Of a stretch of 64,000 nucleotides of DNA, positions 8,944-19,933 are shown piece by piece. The DNA is from Carboxydothermus hydrogenoformans Z-2901 (GTDB taxonomy: Bacteria > Bacillota > Z-2901 > Carboxydothermales > Carboxydothermaceae): positions 1,648,001 through 1,712,000 of the forward strand of contig NC_007503.1 of assembly GCF_000012865.1 (NCBI RefSeq), read 5' to 3'. A model generated the notes under the pieces. The model had not been told where the DNA came from, made no database searches, and worked only from the letters and a program-made list of their open reading frames with translations. Positions within the stretch are counted from its first letter, which is position 1, and each line of letters opens with the position of its first letter. The translations under genes were made by a program, and so were the position numbers.

Positions 8944-9473
8944 TGGACTATACAATTTTCCAGGCAATCAATAATCTTGCCGGTCATAGTATCGTATTAG
9001 ATAAACTTATGATTTACATTTCCAAATACGGCATATTTTTTTACGGATTAATCCTTTTAGGAATCTTTTTAACCGGTTCAAAAAAAGCAAAAATCGAGGT
9101 ATTTAAGATTGGCTTCACCGGGTTAATTGCCTTAGGTATCGCTGGTATTACCGGCAAAATCTATTATCGCCCCCGTCCTTTTATTAGCCATAAAGTTCAT
9201 TTATTGTATGCCCACCAGCCGGACAGCTCCTTCCCGTCCAACCATGTAACGGGAGGTTTCACTTTAGCCCTTGGCATTTACACCCTTTCCCCTTCTTTAG
9301 GATTGCTGGCAATTGTTTATTCGCTTTTAATGGCCTTTTCCCGGATCTATGTAGGCCACCATTACCCTTCAGATGTAATTGGCGGAATGTTATTAGGAAC
9401 ATTTGTGAACTTTTCAAGGCTCCTTTTAGAGCAATATTATCTATCTGGCAAAAGAAGGGATATCAAATGTTAA
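8943..9473 (+). CDS. PAP2-family membrane phosphatase
   Basis: 176 residues, about five membrane segments. All three PAP2 motifs are present: KIYYRPRPF, PSNHVTGG, and SRIYVGHHYPSDVIGG. Such proteins dephosphorylate lipid phosphates, often undecaprenyl diphosphate, in Gram-positives. Placement between two polysaccharide deacetylases, with overlapping ends on both sides, suggests a role in cell-envelope polymer metabolism. Confidence 0.88.
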   Translation: MDYTIFQAINNLAGHSIVLDKLMIYISKYGIFFYGLILLGIFLTGSKKAKIEVFKIGFTGLIALGIAGITGKIYYRPRPFISHKVHLLYAHQPDSSFPSNHVTGGFTLALGIYTLSPSLGLLAIVYSLLMAFSRIYVGHHYPSDVIGGMLLGTFVNFSRLLLEQYYLSGKRRDIKC

Positions 9474-10393
9474 GAAAAGTTTTTGCCGCATTTTTGCTTT
9501 TCCTTTTTATTTTTATCTTTTCCGGATGCACGCCTTCTTCCTCTTCTTCCAGTATTCTGGTCCTGGAATATCACGGAGTAGTTCCAGATAATGCCTGGGG
9601 TAAAGTTAATCATCTTTACAATATCAGGGTTGAAACCTTTGAAAACCAGATAAAAACTTTATTAAATGCCGGCTACAAACCCATCTCTGCCGAAAAGCTT
9701 ATTGACTTTTACTATAACGGCTATAAACCATCCGGGAAAGAATTTTTAATAACCTTTGATGACGGCTACCGCAACAATTACCTGTATGCTTTCCCTATTC
9801 TAAAAAAATACCGGATTCCGGCCGAAATTAACTTAATTGTTGCCCGTATTGACCAGGCAAAAAACCATAACGATCCCATAAAAGGCTATCTAAACTGGGC
9901 TGAAGTTCGAGAAATGGCCAAGTCCGGTTTAATCTATTTTGGCTCTCATACCTACGATAGCCATAATAAAGTTATTACCGGTAAAAATAAAAAGAAAAAT
10001 TATCCCTTTTTAGGACCAATTTATCTTGCAAATCAAAAAAGAATGGAAACATGGCAGGAAGCTGAAAAAAGGGTAAATAAAGACTTAATGCTCTCCGTTG
10101 AGCACATTTCATATGAAACAGGAATTAGACCAGAAATCTTTTGCTATCCCCACGGCAACTATAATACCTGGTTTATAAGTCGTCTTAAAGAAAATGGATT
10201 TAAAATAGCTTTAGCTGGCAATATTCCGCAAAATAATAACCCCTTTACCGTAAAGCGTATTTTGGTAACCGATTCCCTGCGCGGAAAAATACTTCTAATG
10301 AAATTAAATCTTGTAAAATACTCTAATATTCTGGATTTTATAATTAAAAAGGCTTCTGGTTCTGCCCAGAAGCCTGATTTTTCAAAAACTTAA
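9467..10393 (+). CDS. Polysaccharide deacetylase lipoprotein
   Basis: 308 residues. A lipoprotein signal ends at FSGC (Cys ~22) and is followed by a Ser-rich linker (TPSSSSSS) and a NodB-like domain with FLITFDDGYRNNY, YFGSHTYDSHN and EIFCYPHGNYN. This set matches the PgaB/IcaB-like branch rather than simple NodB. It overlaps the PAP2 gene by 7 bases. The stop overlaps the end of the convergent molybdoenzyme gene by 4 bases, and a terminator hairpin lies inside the last codons. Confidence 0.85.
   Translation: MLRKVFAAFLLFLFIFIFSGCTPSSSSSSILVLEYHGVVPDNAWGKVNHLYNIRVETFENQIKTLLNAGYKPISAEKLIDFYYNGYKPSGKEFLITFDDGYRNNYLYAFPILKKYRIPAEINLIVARIDQAKNHNDPIKGYLNWAEVREMAKSGLIYFGSHTYDSHNKVITGKNKKKNYPFLGPIYLANQKRMETWQEAEKRVNKDLMLSVEHISYETGIRPEIFCYPHGNYNTWFISRLKENGFKIALAGNIPQNNNPFTVKRILVTDSLRGKILLMKLNLVKYSNILDFIIKKASGSAQKPDFSKT
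10351..10379. terminator. Bidirectional terminator inside the end of the deacetylase gene
   Basis: GGCTTCTGG and CCAGAAGCC pair around TTCTGC; T-rich sequence follows on both strands. It serves the convergent deacetylase and molybdoenzyme transcripts. The stem core recurs at 25656-25687 and, with changes, at 19871-19907. Confidence 0.7.
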
Positions 10394-13300
10394 ACCTTGA
10401 TTATTTCCACTCTGGTATCCAATTCACTGGCTCCGCCGCCAATAGGATCGGACAAACAAGCATTTTTCAAGGCCACATCCACTAATTGAACATCATTTAC
10501 CGAAAAACCGGTACCTCTGCCCAACGCAAATCCGGTATCACTAACTCCAGCTACCCATTTTGTATGACCGTAAGGTTGAACGGCAGGTATCTTTTTGCCG
10601 TCAATTATCACCGGTGCTGCGCCATAAGCAAAGTGGCCGTAATTATAACTGCATCCCACTACTCCGGGTTTAATGCCATTAGTTACCAGGGCCTTACCTT
10701 GCACTTCAAAGTTTGGAGATATAATTTTGATGGTATCTCCGGAGTTAATCCCGCGTTTTTTAGCATCTTCCGGATTAATCCAAACGTAATTTTCCGCCTC
10801 AATTTCCCGTAACCAAGCATCGCTAATATTACGGTGAGTTCCGATATGTCTTGCCTTCCAGGTAATTAAAATTAGGGGATAACCCTCATTTTCCACCCTT
10901 TGTCCATTGTAATGGGTGATTTCTTCAATTCGGGGAAGACCATCAAAAGGCTTGCCGGTATAGGAGTGCTTACCTTTAGCCACTTTTTCGGAGTAAAAAT
11001 TAACCTCAGAAGCTAATTTATACTTAAGGTACGGACCATCATATTCATTCCCCTTTTCTTCAAATCTACCTCCCCGATTAAGAACATAGACCACCCGGCG
11101 CCACTCTTCCGGCTTTACCGCCCGTTTCCAGGCCTCCAGATCAAAAAACTTCCCCAACGCTTTTTTCCTTGCCCTTTCAAAGATTAACAGTTCTTTATCA
11201 TCCGCTTCCGGTACCGGCTCCTTTCCATCATAGGCAATATTCGCCACCAGCTTCAGGTAAAAGTCCTCGGCTCTGTCCAGGGAACTGCCGTCCGGAAAAG
11301 CCCCGGCTCCCACCCCCGGCAGCTTTAACTCCTTGGCCAGCTCAATAAAGAAGTCCTCCATCTGCCGGGCTTCAGGATAAACCCGGGTTACCGGCTGTTG
11401 AATATGGGTTTCTTTCAGGGGAAAATTGGGGTAGATGGTTTCAAAGCCCCAGCGTTCCAGATAAGTTAAATCGGGCAAAATATAATCGGCATAAGTAGCT
11501 GTTTCACTGATTACCACATCGGATACCACCAAAAGGGGAATAGCTTTCTGGTCTTTTAAGATCTCTTTATGAGCTTTTCCCACCGGTACCGATAATAAAG
11601 GAGAAATCCGGTGAATGAACAGGGCTTTGATAGGGTATGGATAACCTTCAGCAGCACTGGGTAAGGCCTCCTGAATGTTATTTCCGGAGTACTGAAACCA
11701 GGGACGCTTGGCCGGGTAACCATCCCGCTCAAAAAGAGTTGTCTTTTCATAGGCAACCTTGTTACGTACCAGCGGAATGCCCCAGGCTTTAAATCCTTTC
11801 GGCACTTTTAACAGATCATACCTGCCCTCGAAAGGATTGAACTTCGCTCCGGTGCTCATACTGCCCCCTTTCCAGTCATAGTTGCCGATCAGGTGGTTAA
11901 GGCAGTTAATAGCCCGGAGATTATAGAAGCCATTGGTATGCATCGCCGGACCCCGGTAGGAGGTTATAGCCGCTTTTTTCCCATGGGAAGTAAACTCCCG
12001 GGCCAGTTCGATAATCAGCTGAGGGTCGATTTCGCAAATCTTGGCATATTCCTCAATGGTGTACTCCATAACCCGCTCTTTAAACAGGGTAAACACCGAC
12101 TTGACATGGATACCGTTAATAACAGTATCCACTTCCAATTGTCCTTCGGTAGCCTGGTCATGGGGTACTGGCTTGCCATTCTGGATTACCACAAACTGTT
12201 CTTTAGTTCCAATCCCAAGATCACTGGCCCTTAGCTTTGGCTTTCCTTTTGCGGTCAGATTGACCAAATAAGTTGCATCGGACCAGGTCGGTTCCCCGTC
12301 AGCTTTTGCTGCCTCCTTGTTGGGATTGGTTAAGTATCTTAAGTCATAACGCTTGTTTTCTATAATCCAGCGGGCCATACCCAGAGCTAAAGCCGCGTCG
12401 GTTCCCGGTTTTATCGGTACCCAGATGTGTGCCTTTTCAGCAATCCGGCTCAATCTTGGGTCCACCACCGCCAGCTTCATCCCTCTTTTAAGAGCATTCA
12501 TAATTTTGGGCGCAAGCCAAGTTGGCCCTTTATTGGCCACCAGCGGGTCGGTTCCCCAGACAATGAGAAACTCAGCATTATCCACATCGGCGTACATGCG
12601 CTTTTTCGGTTTTTCTGTGTTAAAAGACTGTACATTTCCGATTACACCGTTAACACCACAAATTCCACCATGATCAAGGCTATTAATGCTGCCAAGGGTT
12701 TGGCTCCAGAAACGTTCTTTGAAAAAATCCCGCCGGTCTCCAAAAAAACCTACAATTTGATTGGCCTTGGGGCCCAAATCCGGATGTTTAGTATCGATAA
12801 GCACATCTTTATATTTCGCATCAAATTCTTCCTGGGACATCTCTCCTTTTTTCACTTTTTCCCAATCGGCCATTACCTTCTCTTCGGGAACAAAGGCCCA
12901 GATGCTCTTTAGCCCTGGAGTTCCCAGATCGGGGCTGCCATAGACAATTTCCTTTAACGCTTGTTCCCAGCTAATACTTTGCCATTGACCGCTTCCCCGG
13001 GGGCCAACCCTTTTTAGAGGCTTTTGCACTCGCAAAGCATCATAAGCAGTTTGGATACCGGCCTGGCCTTTAAGACAGGTCCGTCCACCCCTAAAGCCTC
13101 TTCCCTCCTTGGCTATATCACCGCTACCTTTTGCTGCTTCATCCACAGGAGTATTGTACGGAATCTGACCAAAAGGTTGCATGTTAAGCGGACTATAAGG
13201 GTTGCCGGCTATCTTTCTGATATAAGAAGTAGGACCGTTTCCTTTAGCAGGGGTTATAACCGCTTTTATAGTACAATGGGTATTACACTGTTCGCAGGTG

Positions 13301-13497
13301 GTATAAATAACATCTTCGGCACCGTAATCCAGGACATCTTGGCCCGTCCCGTGAGGATCATCTAAAAACCAGGATTCAACCGCCGACTGCTCAGACCCCA
13401 AGGCTGCGGGAGCTACCAAACCTACTCCCGCCAGAACAGCGCTGGTTTTAAGAAAACTTCTTCGGCTGATTTTAACCGGCTTCTTTTGTTGATCCAT
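10390..13497 (-). CDS. Molybdopterin oxidoreductase catalytic subunit, tetrathionate-reductase-like
   Basis: 1035 residues. A Tat signal (SRRSFLK at 11-17) shows export as a folded enzyme. A [4Fe-4S] site is formed by Cys68, Cys71, Cys75 and Cys141 (CEQCNTHC, GGRTCLKG), followed by molybdopterin oxidoreductase and dinucleotide-binding domains. HGGICGVNG is a candidate region for the Mo ligand Cys. Size and the B-C-A gene order match TtrA better than the ~760-residue PhsA/PsrA enzymes, but the substrate (tetrathionate, another sulfur oxyanion, arsenate or other) cannot be read from the sequence. It follows the NrfD gene with one base between stop and ATG. Confidence 0.85.
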   Translation of the reverse strand: MDQQKKPVKISRRSFLKTSAVLAGVGLVAPAALGSEQSAVESWFLDDPHGTGQDVLDYGAEDVIYTTCEQCNTHCTIKAVITPAKGNGPTSYIRKIAGNPYSPLNMQPFGQIPYNTPVDEAAKGSGDIAKEGRGFRGGRTCLKGQAGIQTAYDALRVQKPLKRVGPRGSGQWQSISWEQALKEIVYGSPDLGTPGLKSIWAFVPEEKVMADWEKVKKGEMSQEEFDAKYKDVLIDTKHPDLGPKANQIVGFFGDRRDFFKERFWSQTLGSINSLDHGGICGVNGVIGNVQSFNTEKPKKRMYADVDNAEFLIVWGTDPLVANKGPTWLAPKIMNALKRGMKLAVVDPRLSRIAEKAHIWVPIKPGTDAALALGMARWIIENKRYDLRYLTNPNKEAAKADGEPTWSDATYLVNLTAKGKPKLRASDLGIGTKEQFVVIQNGKPVPHDQATEGQLEVDTVINGIHVKSVFTLFKERVMEYTIEEYAKICEIDPQLIIELAREFTSHGKKAAITSYRGPAMHTNGFYNLRAINCLNHLIGNYDWKGGSMSTGAKFNPFEGRYDLLKVPKGFKAWGIPLVRNKVAYEKTTLFERDGYPAKRPWFQYSGNNIQEALPSAAEGYPYPIKALFIHRISPLLSVPVGKAHKEILKDQKAIPLLVVSDVVISETATYADYILPDLTYLERWGFETIYPNFPLKETHIQQPVTRVYPEARQMEDFFIELAKELKLPGVGAGAFPDGSSLDRAEDFYLKLVANIAYDGKEPVPEADDKELLIFERARKKALGKFFDLEAWKRAVKPEEWRRVVYVLNRGGRFEEKGNEYDGPYLKYKLASEVNFYSEKVAKGKHSYTGKPFDGLPRIEEITHYNGQRVENEGYPLILITWKARHIGTHRNISDAWLREIEAENYVWINPEDAKKRGINSGDTIKIISPNFEVQGKALVTNGIKPGVVGCSYNYGHFAYGAAPVIIDGKKIPAVQPYGHTKWVAGVSDTGFALGRGTGFSVNDVQLVDVALKNACLSDPIGGGASELDTRVEIIKV

Positions 13498-13498
13498 A

Positions 13499-14731
13499 TT
13501 ATTTTCCCTCCCTTAATTCTTCAACGGTATCTATTGGTAATGCTTTAATTGCCACTGTATATAAAAACAGACCGAAAGCCACTATTCCTAAACTACTAAG
13601 CCATTCAACAAGCGTAGGATAATAATAACCCCAGGGCAATCCCGGCAACACCGGGACAATTAAAGCGGGTACCACAATATTAAACCGTACGCCTAAAATG
13701 CCGATTACCACCAAAATAGCCGCCAGGGCAATAGCATTTACCGATTCTTTCAGCCTGGGGTGAAAGAAAATAAACAGTGGAACAACTACTCCCAGAAACA
13801 GCTGTATCCACCAGAACGACCAGGAAAACGGACTCCGAAAAATAGTTTCGATGGTAGCCAGTTCCGTATATTGGAGTCCATAGGCGCCCACAAAAAATTC
13901 GTAAAATTCCAAGCCTAAATCGATAAATAGAAAAAGGGTTAAGAGTCCCGCCAGGGACTTAACCATTTCCTTATCTACCTCACGCCCCACCACTTTGCTC
14001 CGGATCACATAAATTGCCAGTAATAACGCGGTTCCCGAAACCAAAGCCGAAACCACAAAGATTACCGGAAAAAGCCCGCTATTCCAAAAAGGTCGAGCCT
14101 TGGCTACTGCGAAAAGCGTTCCCGTTCCGCCGTGGACTCCAAAAATAGCAACGGGAATTCCTATTGAACCTAATATTTTCAACAAACGATGGTCCCGCTG
14201 TTTGGAAGCAGCGGTCAGGTCGGTACTGCCAAAGGTAAGAAAACGGGCTAAAGCTGCTTGCCACCCACTGCCTTGAGCAACCCGAATTAAATCCTGTCGC
14301 ATGGAAAAATAAAGTTCAGCCATTAATAAACCAATATAAACTACATAAAACCGAACTTCCCAGGCCAGGATACTGGTGAAATTCCAGTAACGTAAAGCAT
14401 GCCAGAAGCGCTCCATTCTTCCCAAATCTATCAAAATAAAACACATAGCTAAAACCATGCTGAGAATGGCAACCAGCAAAGCATCCCGACCAATTTTCTC
14501 ATATTGTTCCATTTTAAACACAAAAATCATAGTCGAGAGAAGAAAAGAACCGGCACTTAAACCCACAAAAAAGATATAAAAGGCTACCCAGGCTCCCCAG
14601 GGCGTAGTACTGGTCAAATTAGTAACGGCCAAACCGCCTCGAATTCGTTCGATAATCGCCCAGCCACCGAGCGCCATTAATATAACGAGTACCCCATACC
14701 AGGCTTTAGTCAATCGTATGCTGCTTTTCAC
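13499..14731 (-). CDS. NrfD/PsrC-type polytopic membrane subunit
   Basis: 410 residues with about ten hydrophobic segments, typical of NrfD-family quinol-interacting subunits (opening TKAWYGVLVILMALGGWAII, internal FYIFFVGLSAGSFLLSTM). It should anchor the exported catalytic and FeS subunits and exchange electrons with menaquinol. GTG start at 14731 with GAGGGAGGATGAGGG upstream. It lies 27 bases after the FeS gene. The position matches TtrC in ttrBCA. Confidence 0.87.
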   Translation of the reverse strand: MKSSIRLTKAWYGVLVILMALGGWAIIERIRGGLAVTNLTSTTPWGAWVAFYIFFVGLSAGSFLLSTMIFVFKMEQYEKIGRDALLVAILSMVLAMCFILIDLGRMERFWHALRYWNFTSILAWEVRFYVVYIGLLMAELYFSMRQDLIRVAQGSGWQAALARFLTFGSTDLTAASKQRDHRLLKILGSIGIPVAIFGVHGGTGTLFAVAKARPFWNSGLFPVIFVVSALVSGTALLLAIYVIRSKVVGREVDKEMVKSLAGLLTLFLFIDLGLEFYEFFVGAYGLQYTELATIETIFRSPFSWSFWWIQLFLGVVVPLFIFFHPRLKESVNAIALAAILVVIGILGVRFNIVVPALIVPVLPGLPWGYYYPTLVEWLSSLGIVAFGLFLYTVAIKALPIDTVEELREGK

Positions 14732-14758: not shown

Positions 14759-15400
14759 TTATTTCAGATAAATGACCCTTGGTTTGGTTCCCATTTCTTC
14801 CTGAAGAACGAAGGCCCTGGGGCTTGCAGCTAATTTGGATACCACACTTTCCGGATCGTTAAGATCGCCAAAATAACGGGCATCTCCCAAACAAACCTCA
14901 ACACAGGCCGGTTCTTCTCCTCGCTGTAACCGGTGGTAGCAAAACATACATTTGCGAACATTCCCTATTGGCGATTTACCTTTCTCCCGTTTGCCGCGGT
15001 AGATACCGTATTCCGGCGCCTGCACTTCGTTGTAGCCAATCATCTCCCGGCTGTAATCCTCACCAAAATCAAAAGACCTGGCTCCGTAAGGACAGCTTAC
15101 AACACAATAGCGGCAACCAATACAGCGGTCATAGTCGATGGCAACAATTCCGTTTTCCATTTTATAGGTTGCTTTTACCGGACAAACTTGAACACAAGCA
15201 GGTCGGTCACATTGCATACACGGTCTTGGAATATGAATTTTAGTAACATTGGGGAAAATCCCCTTCTCCTCTTCAATGACAACATTGTACGATATTCCCG
15301 GTGGCGTACGGTTTTCGGCTTTGCAGGCCACCGTACAGGTATCACAGCCAATACATTTTTGCAAATCAATTACCATTGCCCATTTCTTGTCTGAGCTCAC
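14759..15400 (-). CDS. Four-cluster ferredoxin-type electron transfer subunit
   Basis: 213 residues with four [4Fe-4S] binding sets: CIGCDTCTVACKAEN, CMQCDRPACVQVCP, CIGCRYCVVSCP and CMFCYHRL..CVEVC. This is the classic pattern of the DmsB/PhsB/TtrB family, which wires the membrane subunit to the molybdoenzyme. No own signal peptide, so it probably travels with the Tat-exported catalytic subunit. GTG start at 15400 behind AAAGGAG. It is the first gene downstream of the sigma-54 promoter. Confidence 0.9.
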   Translation of the reverse strand: MSSDKKWAMVIDLQKCIGCDTCTVACKAENRTPPGISYNVVIEEEKGIFPNVTKIHIPRPCMQCDRPACVQVCPVKATYKMENGIVAIDYDRCIGCRYCVVSCPYGARSFDFGEDYSREMIGYNEVQAPEYGIYRGKREKGKSPIGNVRKCMFCYHRLQRGEEPACVEVCLGDARYFGDLNDPESVVSKLAASPRAFVLQEEMGTKPRVIYLK

Positions 15401-15523
15401 TGCTTATTCTCCTTTCCAAACAACTAAATAGGTTGTAAAATTTAATCGTAAAAGACCGGTGTTACTTGAACAATATCTCACAAATATCCCTCTCCGGAGA
15501 GTTTAATTTTTCATAAACTTTTT

Positions 15524-15542
15524 AAGCAAAAACTATACCAAT
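15524..15542 (-). promoter_or_regulatory. Sigma-54 promoter for the molybdoenzyme operon
   Basis: Minus strand TTGGTATAGTTTTTGCTT: the invariant GG and GC are separated by exactly 10 bases, with the TTGC -12 block intact and a degenerate -24 block. It lies ~125 bases before the FeS gene and downstream of an NtrC-type regulator gene, the expected context. Confidence 0.75.
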
Positions 15543-15583
15543 CCCAAAAGGCTCAAAAATCGGGATAGAGATAAAAAAAATCC

Positions 15584-15620
15584 ATGACAATTTGTCATTT
15601 GCTGTGACAAAATGTCATGG
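15584..15620. promoter_or_regulatory. Tandem palindromes, probable enhancer sites for the NtrC-type regulator
   Basis: Two inverted repeats with the same half-site TGACA: ATGACAATTTGTCAT (15584-15598) and TGACAAAATGTCA (15605-15617), centres 20 bp apart. The pair is itself framed by CCATGACA and TGTCATGG. They sit about 75-95 bp upstream of the predicted start of the sigma-54 promoter and just after the regulator's stop. Confidence 0.7.
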
Positions 15621-15640
15621 ATGGCAAGTCACGTTTTAAG

Positions 15641-16972
15641 TTATTTCTTTAATTGGTATTCCTCAATTTTACGATAAAGATTGCGGACGCTAATTCCTAA
15701 AAGTTCGGCGGCCTTGGTTTTATTCCATTGAACCGCCTCTAAAACCTGTTTAATATATCTTTTTTCCATTTCTTCCAGAGTATAAATCTTCTTCGGTGCC
15801 TCTTCCCGGGGAAGACAGCCAAAAAGGTCTTCCTTTTGGATTTTATCCCCGGTGCTGAGCAACAGCCCCCGTTCCAGGATATTGAAAAGTTCCCGAACAT
15901 TCCCGGGATAATCGTAACTCATAAGTGCCTGCAAAGCCTCCGGAGTAAGTTCCTTTTTTACCCCGTTACCCGCCTTTTGCAAAAAGTACTCAACCAGTAA
16001 GGGAATATCTTCTTTTCGCTCCCGCAGAGGCGGAACCCGTATCTTAATAACATTCAGCCGGTAATATAAATCTTCCCGGAAATTACCTTTCGCCACTTCT
16101 TCCTCCAGATTCCGGTTGGTAGCCGCTATTACCCGAACATCCACTTTGCGTAAGCGTATATCACCAACTCGCCGGAATTCACCGGTTTCCAGAAACCGCA
16201 AAAGTTTTACCTGTAATCCCAGTTCCATTTCCCCGATTTCATCTAAAAACAGAGTCCCGCGGTGAGCGCTTTCAATTAAACCGATTTTTGTAGTTATGGC
16301 TCCGGTAAAAGCCCCTTTTTCATAACCGAAGAGCTCGCTTTCCAGAAGTTGGGCCGGTAGGGCTCCGGAGTTGATAGCTATTAACGGTTGTTGGGCTCTA
16401 CTACTCCACTGGTGAATCGCATTGACAATTAATTCCTTACCGGTACCGCTTTCTCCCTCAATCAGCACCGGTGAGTCGGAAGCCGCCACCTTTTTCGCTA
16501 ACTCCAGCACCCTGGTAATGGCTTTACTTTTACCTACAATTACTTTGGAACTTCTATCCCTTAGCAAAACTTCTTTCATCCCCAAATTTTCTTCCAGTAA
16601 CTGCCTTTTCTCGTAAGCTTTTTGCAGGGTAATTTCCAGCTCTGCCAGATTACAGGGTTTGGTTAAATAATCATACGCCCCAAGCTTCATCGCTCCAATA
16701 GCCGATTCTATGGTACCGTGCCCGGTAAGGATAATCACCTGAAGATTTTCATCTAATTGCCTGGCCCGTTGCAGCAGTTCTATTCCATCAATTCCCGGCA
16801 TCTTAATATCAAAAATTGCTAAATGAAAAGTTTCTTCCTTTAAAAATTGGAGAGCCTCTTCACCGGTTGCCGCTCCCTTAACTTCATAGCCTTTCCGGGT
16901 TAACCGTTGAATAAGCAAATCCCGAAAATTTTCCTCATCATCAACTACCAGAACTTTAATTGTTTCCTTCAT
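15641..16972 (-). CDS. Sigma-54-dependent response regulator (NtrC family)
   Basis: 443 residues: a receiver domain ([10 protein letters not shown], phospho-acceptor in FDIKMPG), an AAA+ domain (Walker A GESGTGKE, the sigma-54 contact loop GAFTGA, Walker [10 protein letters not shown]), and a C-terminal Fis-type helix-turn-helix ([20 protein letters not shown]). ATG at 16972 is preferred over an upstream GTG because AAGAAGGTGA lies five bases before it. It overlaps the kinase gene by 17 bases. It should activate the sigma-54 promoter just downstream. Confidence 0.93.
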
Positions 16973-18764
16973 CTTTCTCACCTTCTTTCCGCTCCATCGG
17001 CAAAATAATAGTTACCGTTGTTCCCTTACCTAAACTGCTGCTAATTTGGATATCCCCCTTCATTTCTTTAACAATACCGTAACAAATGGATAGTCCCAGT
17101 CCGGTACCTTTACCCAACGGTTTTGTAGTATAGAAAGGATCAAAAACTCTCTTCAGCTCCTCCTGGGCAATGCCTGTTCCGGTGTCGATTATTTTAATTA
17201 CTAAATCTTTTTCTCTTTTTTCAGTAACCAGTTTAAGCCGTCCTCCTGTTGTTTCCATAGCATCCAGAGCATTACCGATAATATTGAGCAAAACCTGTTG
17301 TAGCTGGGAGAGGTCCCCTTTAACCACAGGCAAATCTACATTAAATTCCTTCTCAACCTGAATGCCAAGTTGTTTAATCCGGTGATTAACCAGGGCCAAA
17401 GTATCTTCCAGCAATTCGTTAAGATTTATGTCAATCATATGACCGGCAGGTTGTCTGGCAAAATTTAACAAACTTCCGGTAATTTTTTTACACCTTTCGA
17501 TCTGTTTACCGATTACCTGTAAGTATCTCGCCAATTCCCCGGAGCGGTGAAGCTCCCTTACATCTTCTTCAGCAATCCTCTCCAACAGGTCTTCAGCATA
17601 AGCCGAAACAGTAGCTAAAGGGTTATTAATTTCATGGGCTACTCCGGCAGCCAGTAACCCTAAAGCCGCCATTTTTTCCGTTTGAATAAGTTCTGCAGAT
17701 TTTTGTTTTATCTGTTGCGTCATAAAGTTAAAAGCATCTACCAATTGCCCGATTTCATCATCGGTAGTTTTGGGTAAAACAAAGTTCAGGTCTCCGGCAG
17801 CCACCCGCCTGGCTCCCTGTTCTAAAACTTCAATAGGTTTCGTAAAACGCAAAGCAAAAAGAATACTGGTTATCACAACCAACACTACCACAAAAAATGT
17901 TATTATTAGAAACTTAAACTTCAAAGCAGTAATGGGTTTGTAAGCTTCACGAACCGGGATTTCCATAACCGCTGCCCACCCTAATTTTTTTATAGGTGCA
18001 TAAACCCCCAATACTTTCTCGCCGTTAAAAGAAACATATCTTAAAGGCAACGTACCTTCATATTCCTTTCCTTCCATAAAACGGCGGACAGCAAGGCTGG
18101 AGTTTACCGGAGTTTGTCTTAAAACCTGACTGAAATCTTCATGGGCAATTAATTTCCCATCATTATTAACCACAAAAATGTCGCCGTCTTGGTTACCGTA
18201 CTTGGCCAGGACGGTATTCATAACAGGCCTTAAATTAACCTGAACATAAAAACCACCTTTAATTTCCCGGGTCAACAAACTTTTCACCGGGATAATTAAA
18301 CTGACCATGGTTCGCCGGTCAGCAGTCTGATAGCTTTTGACCATTCCTTCTTTGCTTAAGAGTTCCGGATCTACTTGGGACAGTTTTTGGGGAGTAATTA
18401 CTTCCCGTTTGGAAACCCGGGCAACTTCTCTTCCCCGCTCGTCCAGAAGACTAATATCTTCAACGGCCGGTATATCCCGTAAAAAGATATAAAGGAATTT
18501 TTCCTGGCTTTCCCGGTTCTGCTGCAAAAGCGCTTCCCCGAAAACATTACCGGCAGCGGAAATTTTATCTTCTATTTCGGAAATCAACTGACCGATATCC
18601 ATAGCTATTCCTTTTACCAGATCAGTATTCCGCTGCTGAATGGATACCAGTAAATCCTTTTCGGCTGCCCGAACATTTAGATAGGCCAGTGACACCAGAG
18701 GTATAATGGACATAAGAATACCAAAGGCTAAAACCTTAATTTTTATCCTTTTCCAAAATTTCAT
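16956..18764 (-). CDS. Membrane sensor histidine kinase
   Basis: 602 residues from the ATG at 18764 (a TTG five codons upstream is less likely given GAGGCG spacing). Two membrane segments (~10-28 and ~275-300) flank a ~250-residue extracytoplasmic Cache-like domain. HAMP, HisKA with phospho-His in AAGVAHEINNPLA, and HATPase with GNALDAME, DTGTGIA and GKGTGLGLS follow. It overlaps the regulator gene and lies three bases after the binding lipoprotein, so the three form one sensory operon. Confidence 0.92.
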   Translation of the reverse strand: MKFWKRIKIKVLAFGILMSIIPLVSLAYLNVRAAEKDLLVSIQQRNTDLVKGIAMDIGQLISEIEDKISAAGNVFGEALLQQNRESQEKFLYIFLRDIPAVEDISLLDERGREVARVSKREVITPQKLSQVDPELLSKEGMVKSYQTADRRTMVSLIIPVKSLLTREIKGGFYVQVNLRPVMNTVLAKYGNQDGDIFVVNNDGKLIAHEDFSQVLRQTPVNSSLAVRRFMEGKEYEGTLPLRYVSFNGEKVLGVYAPIKKLGWAAVMEIPVREAYKPITALKFKFLIITFFVVVLVVITSILFALRFTKPIEVLEQGARRVAAGDLNFVLPKTTDDEIGQLVDAFNFMTQQIKQKSAELIQTEKMAALGLLAAGVAHEINNPLATVSAYAEDLLERIAEEDVRELHRSGELARYLQVIGKQIERCKKITGSLLNFARQPAGHMIDINLNELLEDTLALVNHRIKQLGIQVEKEFNVDLPVVKGDLSQLQQVLLNIIGNALDAMETTGGRLKLVTEKREKDLVIKIIDTGTGIAQEELKRVFDPFYTTKPLGKGTGLGLSICYGIVKEMKGDIQISSSLGKGTTVTIILPMERKEGEKDEGNN

Positions 18765-18781
18765 CGCAAATCGCCTCAATT

Positions 18782-19768
18782 TTACTTAATTACAGTTTTA
18801 GCAAAACTCAATCCGGTTGCATTAAGCTTAAGTCCTAACTTCTTTGCTGTACGCAGATTTACCACCAATTCCAGATTATCCGGTGTTTCTACAGGAATCT
18901 GTTCCGGTTGCTGGCCCTGGAGTACTTTGGCTACAATCCTGGCTCCCTGATACCCCTGGTTGTACATGGAAACTCCATAAGCGGCAAAATAACCCCGGTC
19001 CGCCTCCTGCTCAAAAATACCCATAACCGGAATCTTATATTGCAGAGAAAGGTTTAATAAATCCTGGGTTAAAGTTTCCAGCAAAAAACTGGATAAAGGA
19101 AGAATAGCATCAAATCCTTTTAGGGAATGTTGGTTCAATTTCGTTTTAAATTCAGCCCGTGAACTTACTGCTATGGTTTTTATTTCTATTCCCAAATCTT
19201 TTGCTGTATCTTTAACAATTTTCAAACTGGTATAACTGGGAGGTACCTTAGGGTCATAAAGAACGATAACCTTGTTCACCGACGGCAGCAACTTCTTCAA
19301 CAACTCCAGCCTTTTTCCGGCCAGCTCCGCATGATAATTATCCACCCCGGTAATTTGTCCTCCCGGTTCGATAAAGCTTTTTACCAGACCACCTTCTACC
19401 GAAGAAGCAGCTCCGATAAAAACAATGGGAGTGTCTTGATCCTTAGCTGCTCTTTTCAGGGCATCCGCTTCCACACCTCCGGTGGCGACCAGCACATCCG
19501 GCTTCTCCTGGACTAACTTTCGGGCTAAAGGCAACAGCTGTTCCCGCTCACCTTCGGCATTTAAAATAATATAGTTAATATCTTTTCCCTCGATAATCCC
19601 TAAATCCGCTAAACCTTGCTTAAGACCCACGATTTTTTCCGCCTTTATACCGCTGGCAGCTAAGATCCCTACAGTCCATTTGGCTTTCTCCGGTTGGGCA
19701 CCGACCTCGCAGCCTGCTATAAAAATTATTCCGATTATTAATCCTAAAAAGGTAATTTTTTTCACCAT
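18782..19768 (-). CDS. TrpX-type substrate-binding lipoprotein
   Basis: 328 residues, lipoprotein signal ending at IFIAGC, then an ABC_sub_bind (PF04392-like) two-lobed binding domain (GLKQGLADLGIIEGKDINY, PDVLVATGGVEADALK, IPVMGIFEQEADRGYFAAYG). No permease or ATPase gene is nearby; instead the next genes are a sensor kinase and regulator. It may therefore deliver a signal, perhaps the electron acceptor, to the kinase's external domain. Promoter not clear. Confidence 0.85.
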   Translation of the reverse strand: MVKKITFLGLIIGIIFIAGCEVGAQPEKAKWTVGILAASGIKAEKIVGLKQGLADLGIIEGKDINYIILNAEGEREQLLPLARKLVQEKPDVLVATGGVEADALKRAAKDQDTPIVFIGAASSVEGGLVKSFIEPGGQITGVDNYHAELAGKRLELLKKLLPSVNKVIVLYDPKVPPSYTSLKIVKDTAKDLGIEIKTIAVSSRAEFKTKLNQHSLKGFDAILPLSSFLLETLTQDLLNLSLQYKIPVMGIFEQEADRGYFAAYGVSMYNQGYQGARIVAKVLQGQQPEQIPVETPDNLELVVNLRTAKKLGLKLNATGLSFAKTVIK

Positions 19769-19870
19769 GCTAAAACACCTCTTTCTAACAACAGTTCTTG
19801 CTCTTATAATAGCACAGAATACGCAAAAAGGGCTGTCCCCACAGTACTACAAAACCATTAACACCTAAGA

Positions 19871-19907
19871 AAAAAAGAGGCTCCTGGTTTCCCTGAAGCC
19901 TCTTTTT
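19871..19907 (-). terminator. Terminator after the diguanylate cyclase gene
   Basis: Minus strand: AAAAAGAGGCTTCAGGG, short loop, CCAGGAGCCTCTTTTTTT. The stem resembles the hairpins at 10351 and 25656. Confidence 0.7.
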
Positions 19908-19933
19908 ATTTACAAAATCATTTAATCTTGGCC

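Follow-up and report, generated by a model that had tools for sequence, protein, structure and literature searches.

Two TGACA-N3-TGTCA palindromes ahead of a respiratory molybdoenzyme (Mo-enzyme) operon are very probably the landing site from which a phosphorylated NtrC-type regulator switches the operon on through sigma-54, and the same DNA appears to serve as the terminator of the regulator gene. As a whole, this account of an enhancer pair, sigma-54 activation of the operon and a regulator terminator built from the same nucleotides strikes us as likely. From sequence and comparison we regard the locus as a genuine sigma-54 enhancer and promoter, a circuit of a known kind with a new class of target, the respiratory Mo enzyme; its unusual part is the recurrent fusion of enhancer and terminator. 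An earlier note on this DNA had proposed that the adjacent NtrC-type regulator controls the operon through the palindromes and sigma-54, a proposal that the comparative evidence strongly supports, and had missed the hairpin and T8 tract that the palindrome pair forms.

Results

The window is a stretch of 64,000 nt in a genome consisting of a single contig of 2,401,520 bases; loci fetched for comparison carry L codes. On the minus strand of the window the genes run in the order lipoprotein, histidine kinase, response regulator, a 240-bp intergenic region, FeS subunit, NrfD and Mo subunit. The putative lipoprotein (18782..19768) belongs to the ABC_sub_bind (TrpX-like) family (Pfam PF04392), is found together with the Mo operon in relatives and is likely the extracytoplasmic third component of the sensor. 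It is followed by a sensor histidine kinase of dCache-HAMP-HisKA-HATPase architecture (16956..18779, Pfam) and by the NtrC-family response regulator (15641..16981), in which Pfam identifies a receiver, a sigma-54 AAA+ domain with GAFTGA and a Fis-type HTH, the GAFTGA motif and the receiver aspartate being visible in the sequence itself. This gene adjoins the operon on the upstream side, as had been claimed, the FeS gene beginning at 15400. The operon encodes a 4Fe-4S subunit (TtrB/SrdB/DsrO-like by profile matches; 14759..15400), an NrfD-type membrane anchor (13499..14731, Pfam) and a TAT-exported molybdopterin catalytic subunit that is distantly TtrA/SrdA-like by profile and sequence comparison (10390..13497).

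The predicted sigma-54 (-24/-12) promoter TGGTATAGTTTTTGCT, read on the minus strand from 15540 to 15525, has exactly the GG-N10-GC geometry described earlier, when set against the TGGCAc-N5-TTGCw context of such promoters, and its -24/-12 elements are kept in relatives. At -24 it has the common but weaker TGGTA in place of the consensus TGGCA, and by itself the match is not significant, with 29 sigma-54 matches of at most two mismatches in the window versus 22.7 expected. Across the genome, a pattern search found TGGYAN6TTGCW enriched (43 matches versus 12 for the reversed control), and the promoters of relatives match the consensus better than that of the window (TGGCACCTGTTTTGCT in L176, TGGCACGGACCTTGCT in L177 and TGGCATAAGTTTTGCA in L005). 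No sigma-70-like site scoring 9/12 or more occurs in the intergenic region on the minus strand, and transcription of the operon would be expected to start near 15513. The absence of rpoN had been named as an observation that would overturn the proposal; the gene is present and complete, with activator-interacting, core-binding and DNA-binding domains. About 10 true sigma-54 activators are encoded in the genome, and a scan of genome contigs returned mostly generic NtrC relatives.

Between promoter and regulator gene lie the two predicted upstream activating sites, the proximal TGACAATTTGTCA (15585-15597) and the distal TGACAAAATGTCA (15605-15617), centred at about -78 and about -98 from the expected start. 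Both are exact palindromes spaced 20 bp start to start, as first described, and the suggested search for further copies showed that the 2.40-Mb genome contains TGACANNNTGTCA at these two places and nowhere else. When the intergenic region was shuffled 1000 times with dinucleotides preserved, no equally good pair arose. As tandem dyads upstream of a promoter, kept together with regulator and target, the palindromes have the properties of an enhancer (UAS). Compared with Rfam, the intergenic region matched no family, hairpin-like miRNA models giving weak matches far below their cut-offs.

Both palindromes and their outer flanks also combine into a single inverted repeat (15580-15622; 18-nt arms, 94%, 7-nt loop), directly followed on the minus strand by a T8 tract (15573-15580) and beginning about 18 nt past the regulator stop codon. 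The hairpin folds with -22.4 kcal/mol (z -5.5) and at 70 C retains -7.4 kcal/mol, similar to two other terminators in the window; a simple scan had omitted it on account of a stem mismatch. With a stable hairpin and a U tract behind a gene, and with the covariation described below, the element at 15573..15622 on the minus strand is predicted to be a canonical intrinsic terminator of the response-regulator gene. Because such a hairpin is a textbook terminator, the palindromes could have been a terminator alone, and we used relatives to decide.

Orthologues of the regulator occur in about 18 genera, and the module of lipoprotein, kinase and regulator with the FeS-NrfD-Mo operon recurs at most orthologue loci. 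A palindrome pair with 19-22 bp spacing and a strong -24/-12 site lie between regulator and operon in the window, L170-L172, L175-L178, L181, L184, L186, L192 and L005, and in L174 they precede an operon truncated where the contig ends; at each of these loci an equally good pair was found in 0 of 1000 dinucleotide shuffles. L200 is an additional locus with pair and promoter. If L170 and L171 are assigned to the genus of the window, the combination of pair, promoter and operon is known from at least 12 genera. In L183 the only sites are degenerate, and L185 lacks them altogether; after the regulator gene of L185, about six copies of CGCCAATAAA occupy the place where the palindrome pair would be.

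At the window, L170, L171, L172, L174 and L181 the pair runs straight into a T6-T8 tract. A separate hairpin with a T tract, next to a pair that has none, is present in L175, L177, L178, L183, L184, L192, L005 and L200, and a separate terminator was also seen by eye in L186 and L176. Most fused loci have no other terminator and most unfused loci have one. L172 carries a second terminator-like hairpin, so fusion is not always the replacement of a separate terminator. The outer flanks of the sites change together between species (ATCCA/TGGAT, CCCC/GGGG, AACCA/TGGTT), and in L176, which has no T tract, the flank pair GCAG/CTGC preserves the stem. In alignment A1, comprising seven sequences of which five come from one module clade, three stem pairs changed on both sides, giving 7 cells, a value reached in 0 of 500 shuffles, whereas slid controls gave 1-3 cells. 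The flank positions concerned pair one site with the other, and a single site would be a dyad without them; the hairpin itself is therefore most simply read as being under selection. In L189 (GGACAATTTGTC...GACAAATTGTCC, T7) and L193 (GGCCAATTTGTC...GACAAATTGGCC, T6) the compensatory change departs from the binding consensus. At least three changes are needed to place the fusion on a tree of the regulators; the Carboxydothermus group, L181 and the pair L189/L193 have it, and it seems to come and go.

These observations bear on the possibility that the palindromes are enhancer sites only, the hairpin being a by-product of their identity and the T tract chance. An inverted repeat always results from two equal palindromes, and the L184 pair indeed folds (-15 kcal/mol) without a T tract. 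Such a by-product would not, however, be expected to extend its stem 4-5 bp into flanks that lie beyond the sites and covary, to be followed directly by T6-T8, or to coincide with the uneven distribution of other terminators between fused and unfused loci, and we consider this explanation rather unlikely.

The converse explanation, that the palindromes do nothing but terminate the regulator gene and that the sigma-54 match is incidental, any palindrome duplicate resembling tandem sites, accounts for the strong hairpin with T8 right behind that gene and for the covarying flanks. It is at odds with the near-constant spacing of 19-22 bp and with the pairs that stand without a T tract in L175, L177, L178, L184, L186, L192, L005 and L200, most of them accompanied by a separate terminator. 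It is further contradicted by loci where the target operon stands away from the regulator gene. A stretch of about 6 kb with transposase-like repeats separates the regulator gene of L191 from the FeS operon, yet TGACAAAATGACA and TGACAAAGTGTCA, 35 bp apart, together with TGGCACGGTCCTTGCA are found just upstream of the operon. Sites and promoter in L190 and L196 precede the target there, a distant Mo operon located on the upstream side of the sensor genes, and in L188, L189 and L193 the sites stand before the sigma-54 promoter of a PF03601 (YeiH-type) transporter. At such loci the putative sites accompany the target promoter and not the regulator 3' end, and this placement in L188-L191, L193 and L196 rules out a pure regulator-terminator reading of the group; for the window we judge it very improbable.

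The recognition helix ISVRNLYRK is common to nearly all site-bearing orthologues, with small variants including ISLRN, ISVRQ and VSVRT. A point against the main account is that some regulators having this helix carry no pair beside their gene, though several of these have one elsewhere in the cluster. In L194 and L197 it is IGLKTLYRKV, and the palindromes of L194 differ as well (GTCAAAATGAC / GTCATTTTGAC, beside their own -24/-12 site), which looks like a natural switch of specificity. Binding of the sites by some other regulator, for which the genome offers about 10 true sigma-54 activators, is highly improbable given that the sites co-occur with orthologues of the adjacent regulator across genera and that helix and site differ together in L194. 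The L194 cluster is a paralogous sensor/regulator with a distant Mo operon; its palindromes (about 9300-9414, minus strand) are 18 bp apart and form a hairpin before TGGCAAGCTTTTTGCA.

Discussion

We propose that the sensor kinase, aided by the binding lipoprotein, would respond to a signal outside the cytoplasm, probably the Mo enzyme's own acceptor in its oxidised form, by phosphorylating the NtrC-type regulator, which would bind both TGACA-N3-TGTCA palindromes, assemble on them and remodel sigma-54 RNA polymerase at 15540-15525, so that the FeS-NrfD-Mo genes are transcribed. The palindrome pair of this lineage, with its complementary flanks and T8, would in addition end the regulator transcript and so keep read-through from the regulator gene out of a tightly controlled operon. 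A doubtful extension is that the bound phosphorylated regulator alters termination of its own transcript, by roadblock or hairpin interference, giving feedback on regulator dose, and that the arrangement evolves repeatedly where the regulator gene lies directly upstream of its target.

The locus shares with the NtrBC, AtoSC and ZraSR systems a sensor kinase, a receiver/AAA+/Fis-HTH regulator, a tandem palindromic enhancer and a -24/-12 promoter; it differs from them in having a respiratory Mo enzyme as target, an ABC_sub_bind lipoprotein in the sensor and an enhancer that also forms a terminator. The NtrC site is TGCAC...GTGCA, unlike the TGACA-N3-TGTCA site found here. Among the 39 sigma-54 regulons in Clostridiales of Nie et al. 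2019, as the main text of that study presents them, there is no respiratory Mo-enzyme operon, and the same main text mentions neither Carboxydothermus nor terminators (PMC6615313). It does contain XptB, a predicted sigma-54 activator of sulT in Desulfitobacterium and Desulfosporosinus (PMC6615313), and from that description XptB and sulT would probably be the YeiH-linked branch of the regulator group analysed here (compare L188, L189, L193 and L004).

The nearest parallel to this double use is the co-option of DNA uptake sequences, arranged as inverted pairs, into intrinsic terminators (Kingsford et al. 2007, PMC1852404), likewise a short element with another job reused as terminator. The uptake element is a genome-wide uptake signal, whereas the element here is a sigma-54 enhancer at a single locus. 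A literature search that covered few subscription journals turned up no description of an enhancer overlapping a terminator, nor of a sigma-54 enhancer pair that acts as one, which does not prove that none exists. An enhancer pair lends itself to such reuse because a duplicated palindrome is a hairpin to begin with, and natural variants, fused and unfused, are available. Our results tie regulator, site and target together for a widespread and hitherto unassigned group of NtrC-type regulators of anaerobic Bacillota and would add respiratory Mo reductases, linked with YeiH-type transporters, to the sigma-54 repertoire.

As to the enzyme, the FeS-NrfD-Mo (B-C-A) gene order is that of Salmonella ttrRSBCA and Bacillus selenatarsenatis srdBCA, whose catalytic subunits belong to the TtrA/SrdA clade, a clade spanning enzymes for sulfur oxyanions, selenate and arsenate (review PMC10100899). 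With SrdA the putative likeness is one of gene order and clade. The earlier parallel with Salmonella ttr stands for the gene order but does not extend to fixing the substrate: the Mo subunit scores 522 bits against the curated cut-off of 1750 for tetrathionate reductase TtrA (NF011567) and is about 33% identical to its enterobacterial relatives, and tetrathionate as substrate is not established. TtrR of Salmonella, moreover, is a LuxR-type regulator that works without sigma-54. By sequence comparison the Mo subunit appears to form a distinct branch, closer to haloarchaeal relatives than to enterobacterial TtrA. The nearest named plasmid relatives of the subunit (10390-13497) are haloarchaeal, with about 50% identity, the same FeS-NrfD-Mo order and a TorD-type chaperone.

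YeiH gives sulfite resistance in Salmonella (PMC12880088), and the association of one regulator type with YeiH-type transporters as well as with an enzyme of the TtrA/SrdA clade suggests a sulfur oxyanion as the signal; selenate or arsenate would also be possible. In RNA-seq of C. pertinax, a three-gene Mo cluster, which we do not equate with the window operon, was up under N2 versus CO, thiosulfate being in both media (PMC6557876).

Other overlaps of site and terminator may exist. Close to a sigma-54 promoter of L196 (near 19737-19920, minus strand), a long-arm palindrome, GAGCCC-TGACAAAATGTCA-GGGCTC, runs into TTATTTTTT, and this single palindrome would be another form of the overlap. In the same genome as the window and outside it, L153 (about 1370-1516 of the locus; 702 kb) has a sigma-54-like TGGCAAGAATTTTGCA before a formate-dehydrogenase-like gene, whose frame is broken by a stop, possibly selenocysteine; of two TGTCTA...TAGACA palindromes upstream, one lies inside a terminator-like hairpin with T6, possibly making this a second enhancer-terminator overlap in this genome. 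L159, also in this genome (about 1118.4 kb), has a long palindrome, AACCATTGTTGCATTTTGCAACAATGGTTTTATTTTTT, before TGGCATGACCTTTGCT and directly after another sigma-54 activator gene, and this palindrome may combine activator site and terminator.

In L172 and L173 the first gene of the operon encodes a 335-aa multi-4Fe-4S protein (10581-11588 in L172). A decayed ferredoxin gene in the leader of the window, suspected from L172, was not borne out, 186 of 500 shuffles scoring as well. The leader upstream of the FeS gene in L171 resembles a decayed copy of the 335-aa protein, with a score reached by 1 of 500 shuffles, and only there is a decayed ferredoxin gene plausible.
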